Shown: positions 54,090-64,000 of the stretch, in pieces
Layout: each line of letters begins with the position of its first letter
Position numbering within the stretch: position 1 is the stretch's first letter
Notes under the pieces: model-generated
Told to the model about the DNA's origin: nothing
Database searches by the model: none
The model's input: only the letters and a program-made list of their open reading frames with translations
Program-made: the position numbers and the translations under genes
From: an uncultured Phascolarctobacterium sp.
GTDB lineage: Bacteria; Bacillota; Negativicutes; Acidaminococcales; Acidaminococcaceae
NCBI GenBank assembly: GCA_949299135.1
Contig: CASFZG010000007.1
Coordinates: forward strand, 1-64,000
Length of the DNA stretch: 64,000 nt
Direction: 5' to 3'

Positions 54090-54337
54090 ATAATTTGATA
54101 TTTTATCAGTAATGCGAAGGAAAAGGCGTTTGCGCAGGCCTTACAGAAAAAGCTGCCGCGGCTGAGAGTAGCTTGGTACGGTAAACAGCCAGACCACCTT
54201 CAAACTATGCCCCGAAATTACAGTAGGCGGCATCGTATACCGGCGTTAACGGTTAACTAAGAGGGCTGCTATGCAGCCAATCAGGGTGGAACCGCGGATT
54301 ACTCCGTCCCTTTGCGAGGGATGGAGTTTTTATTTTT
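54090..54337 (+). promoter_or_regulatory. T-box riboswitch for tRNA-Thr
   Basis: A GAGAGTAG kink-turn element, a likely ACC specifier (54193-54195, in AGACCACCTTC), the T-box sequence AGGGTGGAACCGCGG (54283-54297) and a 10-bp terminator stem (54301-54327) with a T run make up the leader. Low charged tRNA-Thr would allow thrS transcription. Confidence 0.93.
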
Positions 54338-56258: not shown

Positions 56259-56264
56259 AATAAA

Positions 56265-56305
56265 AAATAGTGCATTGCACAAAATGTGCAATGCACTATT
56301 TTTTT
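56265..56305. terminator. Strong bidirectional terminator after thrS
   Basis: A 16-bp perfect stem (AAATAGTGCATTGCAC, 56265-56280, with GTGCAATGCACTATTT, 56286-56301) is followed by T on the plus strand and by TTTATTTTATTTC on the minus strand. It can end thrS transcription and also any leftward transcript coming from 56367. Confidence 0.92.
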
Positions 56306-56367
56306 ACTATTCCGTAGTAATAGCATTAACAAATATTTCAATCCACGCTACTTAATTATATAGCGAC
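56302..56367 (-). ncRNA. Candidate crRNA-like regulatory RNA: lone degenerate I-C repeat plus spacer-length segment
   Basis: On the minus strand, 56367-56335 reads as a single I-C-type repeat: GTCGC at the start, stem CGCTA/TAGCG, and the I-C end GCGTGGATTGAAAT. The inner stem and loop are AT-only and no longer pair, so the repeat is degenerate. It is followed by 33 nt (56334-56302), the length of an I-C spacer, and then by the strong terminator. A promoter-like pair (TTGTAT, 17 bp, TATTAT) ends 6 bp before the first repeat base. No other repeat copy is found in the window. The layout matches Cas-regulating crRNA-like RNAs (CreR) described for other type I systems; a dead array remnant is the alternative. 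Confidence 0.5.
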
Positions 56368-56373
56368 ATATTT

Positions 56374-56402
56374 ATAATAGCTTAGTTGAAAGATAAATAC
56401 AA
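56374..56402 (-). promoter_or_regulatory. Minus-strand promoter reading into the lone repeat
   Basis: On the minus strand TTGTAT (56402-56397) and TATTAT (56379-56374) are spaced 17 bp. The +1 position expected 7 bp downstream is 56367, the first base of the repeat. Confidence 0.5.
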
Positions 56403-56478
56403 GATAATCTTTTGTTTTTTTTTGTTACAAATGAAATTGGAATAAATTGCTCATTTGATAATATATTATTAATTTGTG

Positions 56479-56507
56479 TTGACATATTCTTGGCCGGATA
56501 CTATAAT
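56479..56507 (+). promoter_or_regulatory. Consensus promoter of the type I-C cas operon
   Basis: Perfect TTGACA (56479-56484) and perfect TATAAT (56502-56507), 17 bp apart, lie 31 bp before the cas3 start. A full-consensus promoter on a cas operon suggests it needs repression, which fits the candidate regulatory RNA upstream. Confidence 0.9.
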
Positions 56508-56538: not shown

Positions 56539-58938
56539 ATGATTATCTTTCCAGCACATATTAGAAAAGACGATAATGTAGAATATATTCAAACCGTTTC
56601 AGAACACTGCCGTGGTGTGGCTAAAGGTGCTGCATTGTTGTTGAAAGATATTGGATTAGAAAAAACTGCTTATCTTGCGGGATTAGTCCACGATCTTGGA
56701 AAAAGTACAGTTGCTTTTAAACAGTATATTGAAAAAGCTGCCGCTGGCGAAAAAGTGCAGCGCGGTTCTGTAAACCACACCTTTGCAGGAGCACGGTTTT
56801 TGTTGGAAAAACATAATTCCGAGTGTCCGGACGGAATTCGCGATATAGTTTTAGAAATACTTGCGTATGCCGTTGGAGCTCATCACGGTTTATTTGATTG
56901 TGTCGATGATAAAAGTAATAACGGTTTTACAAAACGTGTTCAAAAAGATGATATTGATTATGATAAAGCGTTAAAAGAGTTTTTTAATTCCTGCAGCAGC
57001 GAGCAGGAAATTAATGATTTATTAGAGCAGGCTGAAAATGAATTGTTGCCTGTTTTTAATGCAATAGAGAGTCTTGCTGAAAATAATGCTAATGATATAT
57101 ATAATACACAATTAACTTTCTATACCGGCTTTTTAACAAGGCTTATTCTTTCGGCAATTATAGAAGCGGATAGAAGTGATACGGCTCGGTTTATGAATGG
57201 TACTTCGGAAATAACGGCAAGAAATATGCAGGAAGTATGGAAAAGCTGTATTAAAAATGTTGAAGAAAAGTTGGGCAATTTGAAACCTGATACGCCAATT
57301 AATAAAACACGGTCACAAATATCAGATTTATGCGTTGAAGCAGCAAGTTTAGAAAGTGGGATATATCGTCTTAATTTGCCAACCGGAGCAGGAAAAACCT
57401 TAACTTCTTTAAGATATGCTTTGCATCATGCACTAAAGCATAATAAAAAGCGTATCATTTTTACCATGCCATTGCTTTCGATTATCGAACAGAACGCCGG
57501 TATTATTCATAAATATATAAACAACGAAGATATAGTGTTGGAGCATCATTCAAATGTTATTGAAACAGAAGAAAGCGAAGAATTGGATAAACGGGAACTT
57601 TTAATGGAATCGTGGAATGTGCCTGTTATTATAACTACTATGGTGCAGCTGCTTAATACGTTGTTTACAGGCAAGTCTGCCAATATCAGACGTATGCATT
57701 CGTTATGCAACAGCATTATTGTAATTGATGAAGTACAAACTGTTCCGAACAAAATGTTGTCTCTGTTTAATTTAGCTATAAACTTTCTGGCGAAGATATG
57801 CAATACTACAATTATTTTATGTTCTGCAACACAGCCGTGCTTTGAAAAAACAAAATATTCATTGGATAATGGCGTAAAAGATTTAATTACGCTTACCAAA
57901 GAACAAGCAGATGTTTTTAAAAGAGTACAGCTTGAAGATAAAGGCGAGATGGATGAGACTGAATTAACTAATTTTGCTGCTGAAATTTTAGAAGAAAATA
58001 ATAGCCTGCTGCTTGTATGTAATACTAAAAATGAAGCGGCTGTAATGTTTAATATGATAAGCAGCAAGATAACAAATGTTAAAACATTCCATATTTCTGC
58101 CGGCATGTGCACAGCACACAGAAAGAAAACTATTGCAGAATTGCAAAAGGCATTGGAAAATAAACAAAATAAAATATTCTGCGTGTCAACTCAGGTTATA
58201 GAAGCCGGGGTAGATGTATCGTTTGCAAGGGTAATTCGTCTGTTGGCGGGAATGGATAATATTGTGCAGGCAATAGGGCGCGAAAACAGAAACAGAGAGT
58301 TTGACGGATTAGCGCCCGGATATATAGTTCGCCTTAAAGGTGAGTTTTTGAGAGGTTTGTCTGAAATTGAAGAAGCTAAAAATGCATCTGCAAATTTGTT
58401 AATTAAGTACAAAAACAACAAAGAAAAATATGATGGAGATTTAATGTCCGAAAAAGCTATAAATGAATATTATAGCTGCCTTTATGAGAACGTAAAATCC
58501 GGTTATCACGATTTTTATGTAGAGTCTGAACGCGATAGTATATTGAATTTGATGTCGTGTAATAAAAATGTGGATGCACAGAAAGTTCCGGAATATAATA
58601 AATATTTTATGCATCAGGCGTTAAAAACGGCAGGAGGATTATTCGAAGTTTTTGACGAATCTTCTATTGATGTAATTGTTCCTTACGAGAGAGGAAAAGA
58701 AATCATCCAGGAGATTTTTTCTATTGGCAATAGAGATTATGGAAAATTAAAAGAGCTTTTAAAAGAAGCCAAATTATACACGGTATCGTTGTTTAAATAT
58801 CAAAAAATAAAATTAGAAGAACAGGGGGCGCTGATATTTGCGGAAAATGCCGGTGTATATTTTTTGCAGGAAGGTTATTATGATGATTTAACCGGGTTAA
58901 ATTTTAGTCAGGGTGAGTTGCCTTTGCAAATGGTTTGA
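56539..58938 (+). CDS. cas3: Type I-C Cas3 helicase-nuclease
   Basis: Cas3 (799 residues) unwinds and degrades DNA marked by Cascade. The N-terminal HD nuclease domain has LAGLVHDLGKSTVAFKQYI (near 50) and AVGAHHGLFD. The SF2 helicase has Walker A LPTGAGKTLTS, box II VIDEVQTVPN, box III SATQP and the C-terminal QVIEAGVDVSFARVIRLLAGMDNIVQAIGRENR. A GGAGG site precedes the start. The gene is visibly AT-rich (about a third GC by eye) against near half in most of the window, which suggests it was acquired by transfer. Confidence 0.95.
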   Translation: MIIFPAHIRKDDNVEYIQTVSEHCRGVAKGAALLLKDIGLEKTAYLAGLVHDLGKSTVAFKQYIEKAAAGEKVQRGSVNHTFAGARFLLEKHNSECPDGIRDIVLEILAYAVGAHHGLFDCVDDKSNNGFTKRVQKDDIDYDKALKEFFNSCSSEQEINDLLEQAENELLPVFNAIESLAENNANDIYNTQLTFYTGFLTRLILSAIIEADRSDTARFMNGTSEITARNMQEVWKSCIKNVEEKLGNLKPDTPINKTRSQISDLCVEAASLESGIYRLNLPTGAGKTLTSLRYALHHALKHNKKRIIFTMPLLSIIEQNAGIIHKYINNEDIVLEHHSNVIETEESEELDKRELLMESWNVPVIITTMVQLLNTLFTGKSANIRRMHSLCNSIIVIDEVQTVPNKMLSLFNLAINFLAKICNTTIILCSATQPCFEKTKYSLDNGVKDLITLTKEQADVFKRVQLEDKGEMDETELTNFAAEILEENNSLLLVCNTKNEAAVMFNMISSKITNVKTFHISAGMCTAHRKKTIAELQKALENKQNKIFCVSTQVIEAGVDVSFARVIRLLAGMDNIVQAIGRENRNREFDGLAPGYIVRLKGEFLRGLSEIEEAKNASANLLIKYKNNKEKYDGDLMSEKAINEYYSCLYENVKSGYHDFYVESERDSILNLMSCNKNVDAQKVPEYNKYFMHQALKTAGGLFEVFDESSIDVIVPYERGKEIIQEIFSIGNRDYGKLKELLKEAKLYTVSLFKYQKIKLEEQGALIFAENAGVYFLQEGYYDDLTGLNFSQGELPLQMV

Positions 58939-63034: not shown

Positions 63035-64000
63035 AAAAGCTGCTTAATACTTTGTTTGTAGTTTCTCCAGATACCTATCTTGCGTTGGAAAATGAAAACG
63101 TCGTTATTTATCGGGAAGAAACGGTTTTACGCAGGATTCCGCTTTTGACGCTGGAAAATATTTTGTATTTTGGCTATAAAGGTGCCAGTCCGGCTTTAAT
63201 GGGCGCTTGCGCGGAACGGAATATAGGCTTGTGCTTTTTAAAGCCCGGCGGCAGATTTTTGGCGCGCGTTTGCGGCTCATCTTATGGCAATGTGCTTTTG
63301 CGCAAAGAACAGTACAGAATTTCCGATAATCCTGAAATCGCCTGCCGCTTTGCCCGTAATTTTATTGCCGGAAAAATCTATAATTCACGCAGTGTTATAA
63401 GGCGCGCTTTGCGCGACCATCCGCTGAGCGTTGATAAAGAAAAGCTTGAATTTGTTGCCAATGAGCTGATGCACAGCGTAAGGCTTGCGCGCGTATGCGG
63501 TGATTTGGATGAGCTGCGCGGAATAGAAGGCAACAGTGCCAAACTTTATTTCAGCGTTTTTGAGCAGTTAATTTTGAATGATAAAACTACTTTCAGTTTT
63601 AACGGCAGGGTGAAGCGTCCTCCGGGAGATGCGGTAAATGCAATGCTTTCGTTTGTTTATGTGCTGCTTGCGCATGATTGTGCCAGTGCCTTGGAAAGCG
63701 TCGGGCTGGATTCTTATGTTGGCTTTTTGCATGCAGACAGGCCGGGACGGCAATCGCTGGCGCTTGACCTGATGGAAGAACTTCGTTCGGTTTATGCGGA
63801 CCGTTTTATTTTGTTTTTAATAAATAACAGGATGATTAAGGCAAATTGCTTTGATTACCGTGAAAACGGCAGCGTTTATCTGAATGATGAGGGCAGAAAA
63901 ACAGTTTTGGCAGAGTGGCAAAAACGTAAGCAGGATTCAATTACGCACCCGTTTTTAAACGAGAAAATACAGTGGGGGCTTGTTCCGTATGCGCAGGCGT
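63031..64000 (+). CDS. cas1: CRISPR integrase Cas1 (type I-C), truncated by window edge
   Basis: The frame is open from ATG 63031 to the window end (323 codons), close to the full Cas1 length. The N-terminal beta domain (TLFVVSPDTYLALENENVVIY) and the helical catalytic domain are present. The metal-binding residues sit in LRGIEGNSAKLYF (Glu) and GFLHADRPGRQSLALDLMEELR (His, with the acidic residue in DLMEE). It integrates new spacers with Cas2, which is presumably just beyond the edge along with the CRISPR array. Base composition is close to half GC, unlike cas3-cas8c. Confidence 0.93.
   Translation, partial: MKKLLNTLFVVSPDTYLALENENVVIYREETVLRRIPLLTLENILYFGYKGASPALMGACAERNIGLCFLKPGGRFLARVCGSSYGNVLLRKEQYRISDNPEIACRFARNFIAGKIYNSRSVIRRALRDHPLSVDKEKLEFVANELMHSVRLARVCGDLDELRGIEGNSAKLYFSVFEQLILNDKTTFSFNGRVKRPPGDAVNAMLSFVYVLLAHDCASALESVGLDSYVGFLHADRPGRQSLALDLMEELRSVYADRFILFLINNRMIKANCFDYRENGSVYLNDEGRKTVLAEWQKRKQDSITHPFLNEKIQWGLVPYAQA

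Follow-up and report, generated by a model that had tools for sequence, protein, structure and literature searches.

Our findings point to a gene for a small guide RNA in the gap between thrS and cas3, and we consider it very probable that this element is a CreR-type gene (encoding a Cas-regulating crRNA-like RNA) for the neighboring type I-C CRISPR-Cas system. The element lies within the window, by which we mean the whole stretch of 64,000 nucleotides analyzed (positions 1 to 64,000 of contig CASFZG010000007.1, whose numbering is used throughout unless a locus is named). It combines the features by which CreR genes are recognized, namely a degenerate repeat with its handle, located off the array and beside a cas operon, a partial match to a promoter next to a PAM, a predicted promoter and terminator of its own, and a complete Cascade encoded alongside. 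Because similar elements occur at about a quarter of the related loci we surveyed, it appears to be a conserved regulator and not a decayed array. The strongest feature, a match between the spacer-like part and the cas3 promoter, was missed by the initial annotation, which had proposed a CreR-type element from anatomy alone; the predicted target over the -35 box of cas3 lends that proposal support.

Anatomy of the element

A leftward unit occupies the gap between the end of thrS (56258) and the start of cas3 (56539), and consists of a promoter, a 33-nt degenerate repeat (psiR), a 36-nt pseudo-spacer (psiS) and a terminator. The predicted creR-like promoter, on the minus strand, comprises a -35 box TTGTAT at 56397-56402 and a -10 box TATTAT at 56374-56379, separated by 17 nt and followed by 6 nt to the first psiR base, where the initial annotation had placed the expected start. 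These boxes are where it had described them. Taken alone the promoter is weak (three of six consensus bases in the -35 box and five of six in the -10 box, a moderate closeness overall), and a scan for consensus promoters did not list it among its predictions; it gains weight because its geometry is common to the relatives described below.

The lone repeat reported on the minus strand from 56367 to 56335 is present there. Comparison with the true array repeat beyond position 64,000, which had been proposed as a check, identifies psiR (GTCGCTATATAATTAAGTAGCGTGGATTGAAAT, 56335-56367) as a degenerate type I-C repeat, identical to the array repeat at 6 of 6 bases at the 5' end and 15 of 15 at the 3' end, and at 2 of 12 in the mid-part. 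The claim that the ends were kept therefore stands for all 21 end bases. The accompanying claim that the inner stem had decayed does not: in the predicted RNA fold the stem within psiR is shortened yet intact (CGCUAU/GUAGCG, 6 bp), and at pair 5 a compensatory change from G-C to A-U indicates that pairing has been kept. The 11-nt 5' handle within psiR (TGGATTGAAAT) is also intact; handle and stem have been retained and the loop has been lost. When the whole genome was searched for GTCGC-N16-GTGGATTGAAAT with 0-1 mismatch, the only matches were the psiR copy and the array and decayed array 8-11 kb away, the remaining matches carrying 2-3 mismatches, which is chance level.

Next to psiR on the minus strand lies psiS (guide part ATTTGTTAATGCTATTACTACGGAATAGTAAAAAAA, 56299-56334), followed by a hairpin with a T-run at 56262-56304. 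The spacer-length segment and terminator of the initial annotation are thus both present, with the segment measuring 36 nt instead of 33 and the terminator comprising 20 predicted pairs instead of 16. Since the hairpin is symmetric, thrS on the plus strand could end there too, in line with the sharing that had been suggested. The predicted RNA, with its 6-bp stem and 20-pair terminator, gives z = -6.6, the terminator contributing most. An Rfam search at the element gave no CRISPR-related family. Separately, a T-box leader upstream of thrS (54103-54314, plus strand) scored above the Rfam threshold.

The cas operon and its array

cas3 (56539-58938, plus strand) is the first gene of a complete type I-C operon, including Cascade, in the order cas3, cas5c, cas8c, cas7c, cas4, cas1, cas2. 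Its promoter, TTGACA-17-TATAAT at 56479-56507 on the plus strand, matches the consensus at 12 of 12 positions, as the initial annotation had it. Only 31 bp separate the -10 box from the cas3 ATG, which leaves no space for an extra gene, so the promoter reads straight into cas3. The true array, with 19 exact copies of GTCGCTGCCCGCATGGGCAGCGTGGATTGAAAT, runs from contig position 64489 on, past the window end; psiR exists as a single copy on the strand opposite to this array, and the operon lies between the two. A second I-C array at contig 66786-67238 (L003 10787-11240), about 1 kb past the main one, is irregular and degraded, with repeats that differ from one another. The last spacer of the array (L003 9734-9767) matches major capsid genes of gokushoviruses (Microviridae), the closest of them agreeing at 27 of 28 bases, and in the one partial protospacer the preceding bases are CTT; exact spacer scans of IMG/VR for the PAM of the window system returned no match.

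The window Cas5c shares 80% identity with proteins from Clostridia and 78% with that of G048, and only 42-63% with those of the other Negativicutes-class loci compared. Judged from these sequences, it is plausible that the effector module and its regulator were acquired together horizontally. A sister I-C locus in a genome of the same genus (G004, locus L140 4649-11988) is by eye very close to the window in Cas1 and Cas4, and its repeat is similar too, whereas its Cas3-Cas5-Cas8-Cas7 module is divergent from that of the window; effector modules seem to have been swapped against a common adaptation module and array.

Match of the pseudo-spacer to the cas3 promoter

We scanned psiS (ATTTGTTAATGCTATTACTACGG...) against both strands of the 64 kb and of the 1.87-Mb genome. 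In a type I guide each sixth base flips out, which makes pairing at positions 6, 12 and 18 dispensable. Positions 1-5 and 7-10 of psiS match the cas3 promoter at 56453, with a single mismatch at flip position 6. A candidate PAM, CTC, occupies 56450-56452 next to the match, and the predicted 35-nt protospacer extends over 56453-56487, both on the plus strand, with the -35 box of cas3 at protospacer positions 27-32. Within the 64 kb the cas3 promoter is the sole site with all nine seed positions and a TTC, CTC, TTT, TCC or CCC PAM. The full genome holds four sites with a full seed and a YTY PAM, one being the cas3 promoter and three lying elsewhere, and a search across it for a better psiS target found none. 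The ungapped match has P = 0.0023 when the region is shuffled by dinucleotides and P = 0.0013 when psiS is. If G11 of psiS is left unpaired, positions 13-17 match too, giving mismatches at 6, 12 and 18 and a score of 14/15 (next-best window site, 11), with P = 0.00045 and 0.00015 in shuffles, values that are partly post hoc since this gapped reading was seen after the ungapped one.

Pairing in the window stops at position 10 without a gap, or at about 17-20 with one unpaired base, and would presumably be too short for target cleavage. The run of 9 falls below that of most relatives (14-16), which makes the element one of the weakest members of the family. Its PAM, CTC, departs from the I-C consensus TTC, and among the relatives only L068 uses CTC. 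PAM screens reportedly found CTC to be accepted by type I-C, and its use in L068 agrees with this. The pairing in the window may be tuned or partly decayed.

Comparison across type I-C loci

A Cas3-only scan of the genome contigs returned no loci, and Cas5c was therefore used as the query. Similarity to Cas5c, which takes no account of the element, yielded 80 I-C loci, of which we analyzed the 71 that extended 300 bp or more upstream. A lone degenerate repeat occurs upstream of cas3 or cas5 in 20 of these 71 other loci, usually in the antisense orientation that it has in the window. At 16 of these 20 loci psiS has a match of 10-16 consecutive non-flip positions in the local cas promoter region, beside a PAM that is mostly TTC and in some cases TTT or CTC. 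For seven loci (L050, L061, L063, L089, L095, L100 and L106) the claim extends only to the "promoter region", as a crude promoter finder put no cas promoter over the protospacer. For L061, L068, L070, L075 and L077 the distances to the coding sequence are only approximate, since automatic cas3 starts were taken at the earliest start codon. L097 has a psiR and no convincing psiS target, and two initial candidates, L043 and L057, were discarded for poor repeat or stem structure.

In the set used for statistics (n = 22, window included), psiS and its own promoter reach a run of 9 with a PAM in 17 of 22 pairs, and swapped psiS/promoter pairs do so in 0 of 460, with a maximum of 8. Target sites fall into a few geometries overall; one of them, with the -35 box at protospacer positions 25-32, is common to L058, L070, L072, L075 and the window. 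Guide and target vary jointly: L038 reads GTTTG.TGGAT.ATGTA and L041 reads ATTTG.TGGGC.GTATA, each matching its own promoter, and joint change is seen across L072, L075 and L077 as well. Since L038, L039 and L041 are akin, as are L072, L075 and L077, the independent cases number fewer than 20. Most relatives pair to position 16-17; L068, with a run of 10 and a CTC PAM, is short like the window.

In the 20 psiR, complementarity of the first four stem pairs holds in 78 of 80 cells (shuffles averaged 54.6 and peaked at 67, with relatedness ignored), with pair 2 varying among G-C, A-U and G-U and pair 3 among C-G, G-C, A-U and U-A, and the handle TGGATTGAAAN is nearly invariant across the set. In most loci a -10 box, often an exact TATAAT, stands 5-8 nt ahead of the repeat, with a TTG-type -35 box at a near-constant distance.

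Within the window's own class, three of about 29 I-C loci carry a recognizable lone repeat: the window, L013 and L027. G004, the sole same-genus genome with a Cas3 match, has a divergent effector module (identity 34% for Cas3 and 28% for Cas5), and nothing resembling the repeat stands upstream of its cas operon; nor was a recognizable lone repeat found upstream of cas3 in G048, the closest relative in the family (Cas3 50%). The record L118 (MT838487.1, 1-500), filed as "Bacteriophage sp." from human faeces, contains an I-C-type array of several repeats; it is probably a misfiled host contig and possibly a phage-borne array.

Proposed mechanism

We infer transcription, processing, binding, repression and a physiological role of the element from its sequence. 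Transcription would start at the first repeat base and run leftward through psiR and the 36-nt psiS to the terminator. Cas5c would then cleave at the foot of the short stem, leaving the standard 11-nt handle and a product that begins UGGAUUGAAAU. Cascade would load the psiS guide, whose seed would pair with the cas3 promoter beside the CTC PAM, and on 56450-56487 the complex would cover the -35 box and block RNA polymerase. With pairing too short for cleavage by Cas3, the outcome would be repression only. This would make a negative feedback loop, in which free Cascade represses cas and the occupation of Cascade by crRNAs or anti-CRISPRs relieves the repression. I-C Cascade can serve as a repressor: in Neisseria, guides next to TTC direct it to silence a promoter, and TTT works there too (PMC10865793). 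The PAM consensus of the B. halodurans I-C system is NTTC (PMC6546366).

Alternative explanations

Relics do occur in this genome, as the truly decayed array at contig 66786-67238 attests, and the ungapped psiS match spans only nine contiguous positions; the element could then be a remnant of a decayed array without present function, its match a coincidence in AT-rich DNA. We regard this as improbable, given that psiR is single, on the strand opposite to the array and on the other side of the operon, that handle and stem were kept while the loop was lost, that the architecture recurs at 20 of 71 loci, 16 of them with strong target matches, and that the P values for coincidence are 0.0002-0.002. 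Nor would an array remnant be expected to show promoter boxes at so regular a distance from the repeat, for which the simplest reading is a single transcript that begins with the first repeat base. The initial annotation had itself named the end of a decayed array as an alternative, which is a poor fit to 20 of 71 loci with single promoter-linked repeats, covarying stems and local psiS targets. A more substantial minority possibility is that a formerly functional CreR has been partly inactivated through a missing target base at position 11 and the CTC PAM, such that RNA might be made with little repression. Pairing that ends at position 10 without a bulge, where most relatives reach 16-17, agrees with such a loss, but L068 is likewise short (run of 10) with a CTC PAM, the promoter, handle, stem and terminator of the window element are all intact, and contact through the seed may suffice for binding.

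Two readings would assign the RNA another task altogether. That it is a CreA-type antitoxin RNA of a CreTA or CrePA module, aimed at a toxin gene instead of cas3, is suggested by L013 and L027, where psiS targets a small-ORF promoter and not that of cas3. In the window, however, it is cas3 that follows the matched promoter, 31 bp from -10 box to ATG, and no adjacent toxin gene, which makes this reading very unlikely. Slightly less likely still is an RNA anti-CRISPR, a Racr-like decoy left by a mobile element that would bind Cas proteins via its repeat and not guide Cascade. Racrs are indeed solitary repeat units (PMC10651486), but this element sits between thrS and a host cas operon instead of in a virus or mobile element, and its psiS matches a target that shows the PAM pattern of type I. 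A CreR-type gene acting on cas3 remains the reading we favor.

Units at small open reading frames and wider significance

At L147 (G340, which includes L027), the psiS of a psiR-psiS-terminator unit (72-106 and 515-610) matches not cas3 but a small-ORF promoter, with a TTT PAM and a run of 14, the -35 box overlapping the far end of the protospacer. The target ORF (171-428) encodes 85 aa and gave no Pfam or PADLOC match; the unit is a candidate CrePA/CreTA-like module of type I-C. At L146 (G071, which includes L013; 1964-2110 and 2270-2551), psiS matches a downstream site over 16 consecutive non-flip positions beside a TTT PAM, and within its first 19 positions only position 6 is mismatched. 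This site lies upstream of cas3, before a strong Shine-Dalgarno sequence with a three-codon mini-ORF (ATG GAT TAG) and a 93-aa ORF, and the arrangement makes a CreTA-like module possible.

Type I-C is among the commonest CRISPR subtypes, and to our knowledge little is known of how its expression is restrained. Our survey suggests that about a quarter of the sampled I-C loci, a sample dominated by Clostridia, encode a self-repression guide RNA processed by Cas5c and not Cas6, which makes cas autoregulation directly testable in I-C and bears on the sensing of anti-CRISPRs and on the reuse of native I-C systems as repressors. It is also relevant to genome annotation, where lone repeats are easily written off as array debris. 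A broader view, which we hold as a serious possibility somewhat short of probable, is that a large family of regulatory RNAs that guide Cascade, each with one repeat and starting at its first base, belongs to I-C itself, most repressing cas and some (L013, L027) repressing small, possibly toxic ORFs. If so, units of the L013 and L027 type would represent CreTA/CrePA-like addiction modules for I-C.

Relation to known systems

CreR is reportedly the subject of a 2023 paper in Cell Host & Microbe, and a survey of CRISPR-derived RNA regulatory elements is said to have appeared in the same year. Our literature search returned no report of a type I-C CreR; the primary CreR papers lay outside its coverage, and an earlier prediction for I-C is possible. 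CreR has been demonstrated for types I-B, I-E and V-A (PMC12737573, PMC13131331). The window element, predicted to act in the manner of CreR, resembles it in joining a degenerate repeat to a spacer-like guide beside a cas operon, with partial complementarity to a cas promoter. It differs in its effector type, I-C, where Cas5c processes the RNA and there is no Cas6, and in its single repeat, with transcription predicted to start at the first base of that repeat and no further copy downstream. CreA of the CreTA and CrePA modules likewise consists of a psiR and a psiS and, through partial complementarity, directs Cascade to a promoter, but its role is toxin repression and two repeats are usual (PMC9458426, PMC8501985), whereas the window element has one repeat and the cas3 promoter as its predicted target. 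Racr shares with the element the form of a solitary repeat unit off the array but is a virus-encoded inhibitor (PMC10651486), whereas the element described here adjoins a host cas operon and has a predicted promoter target.
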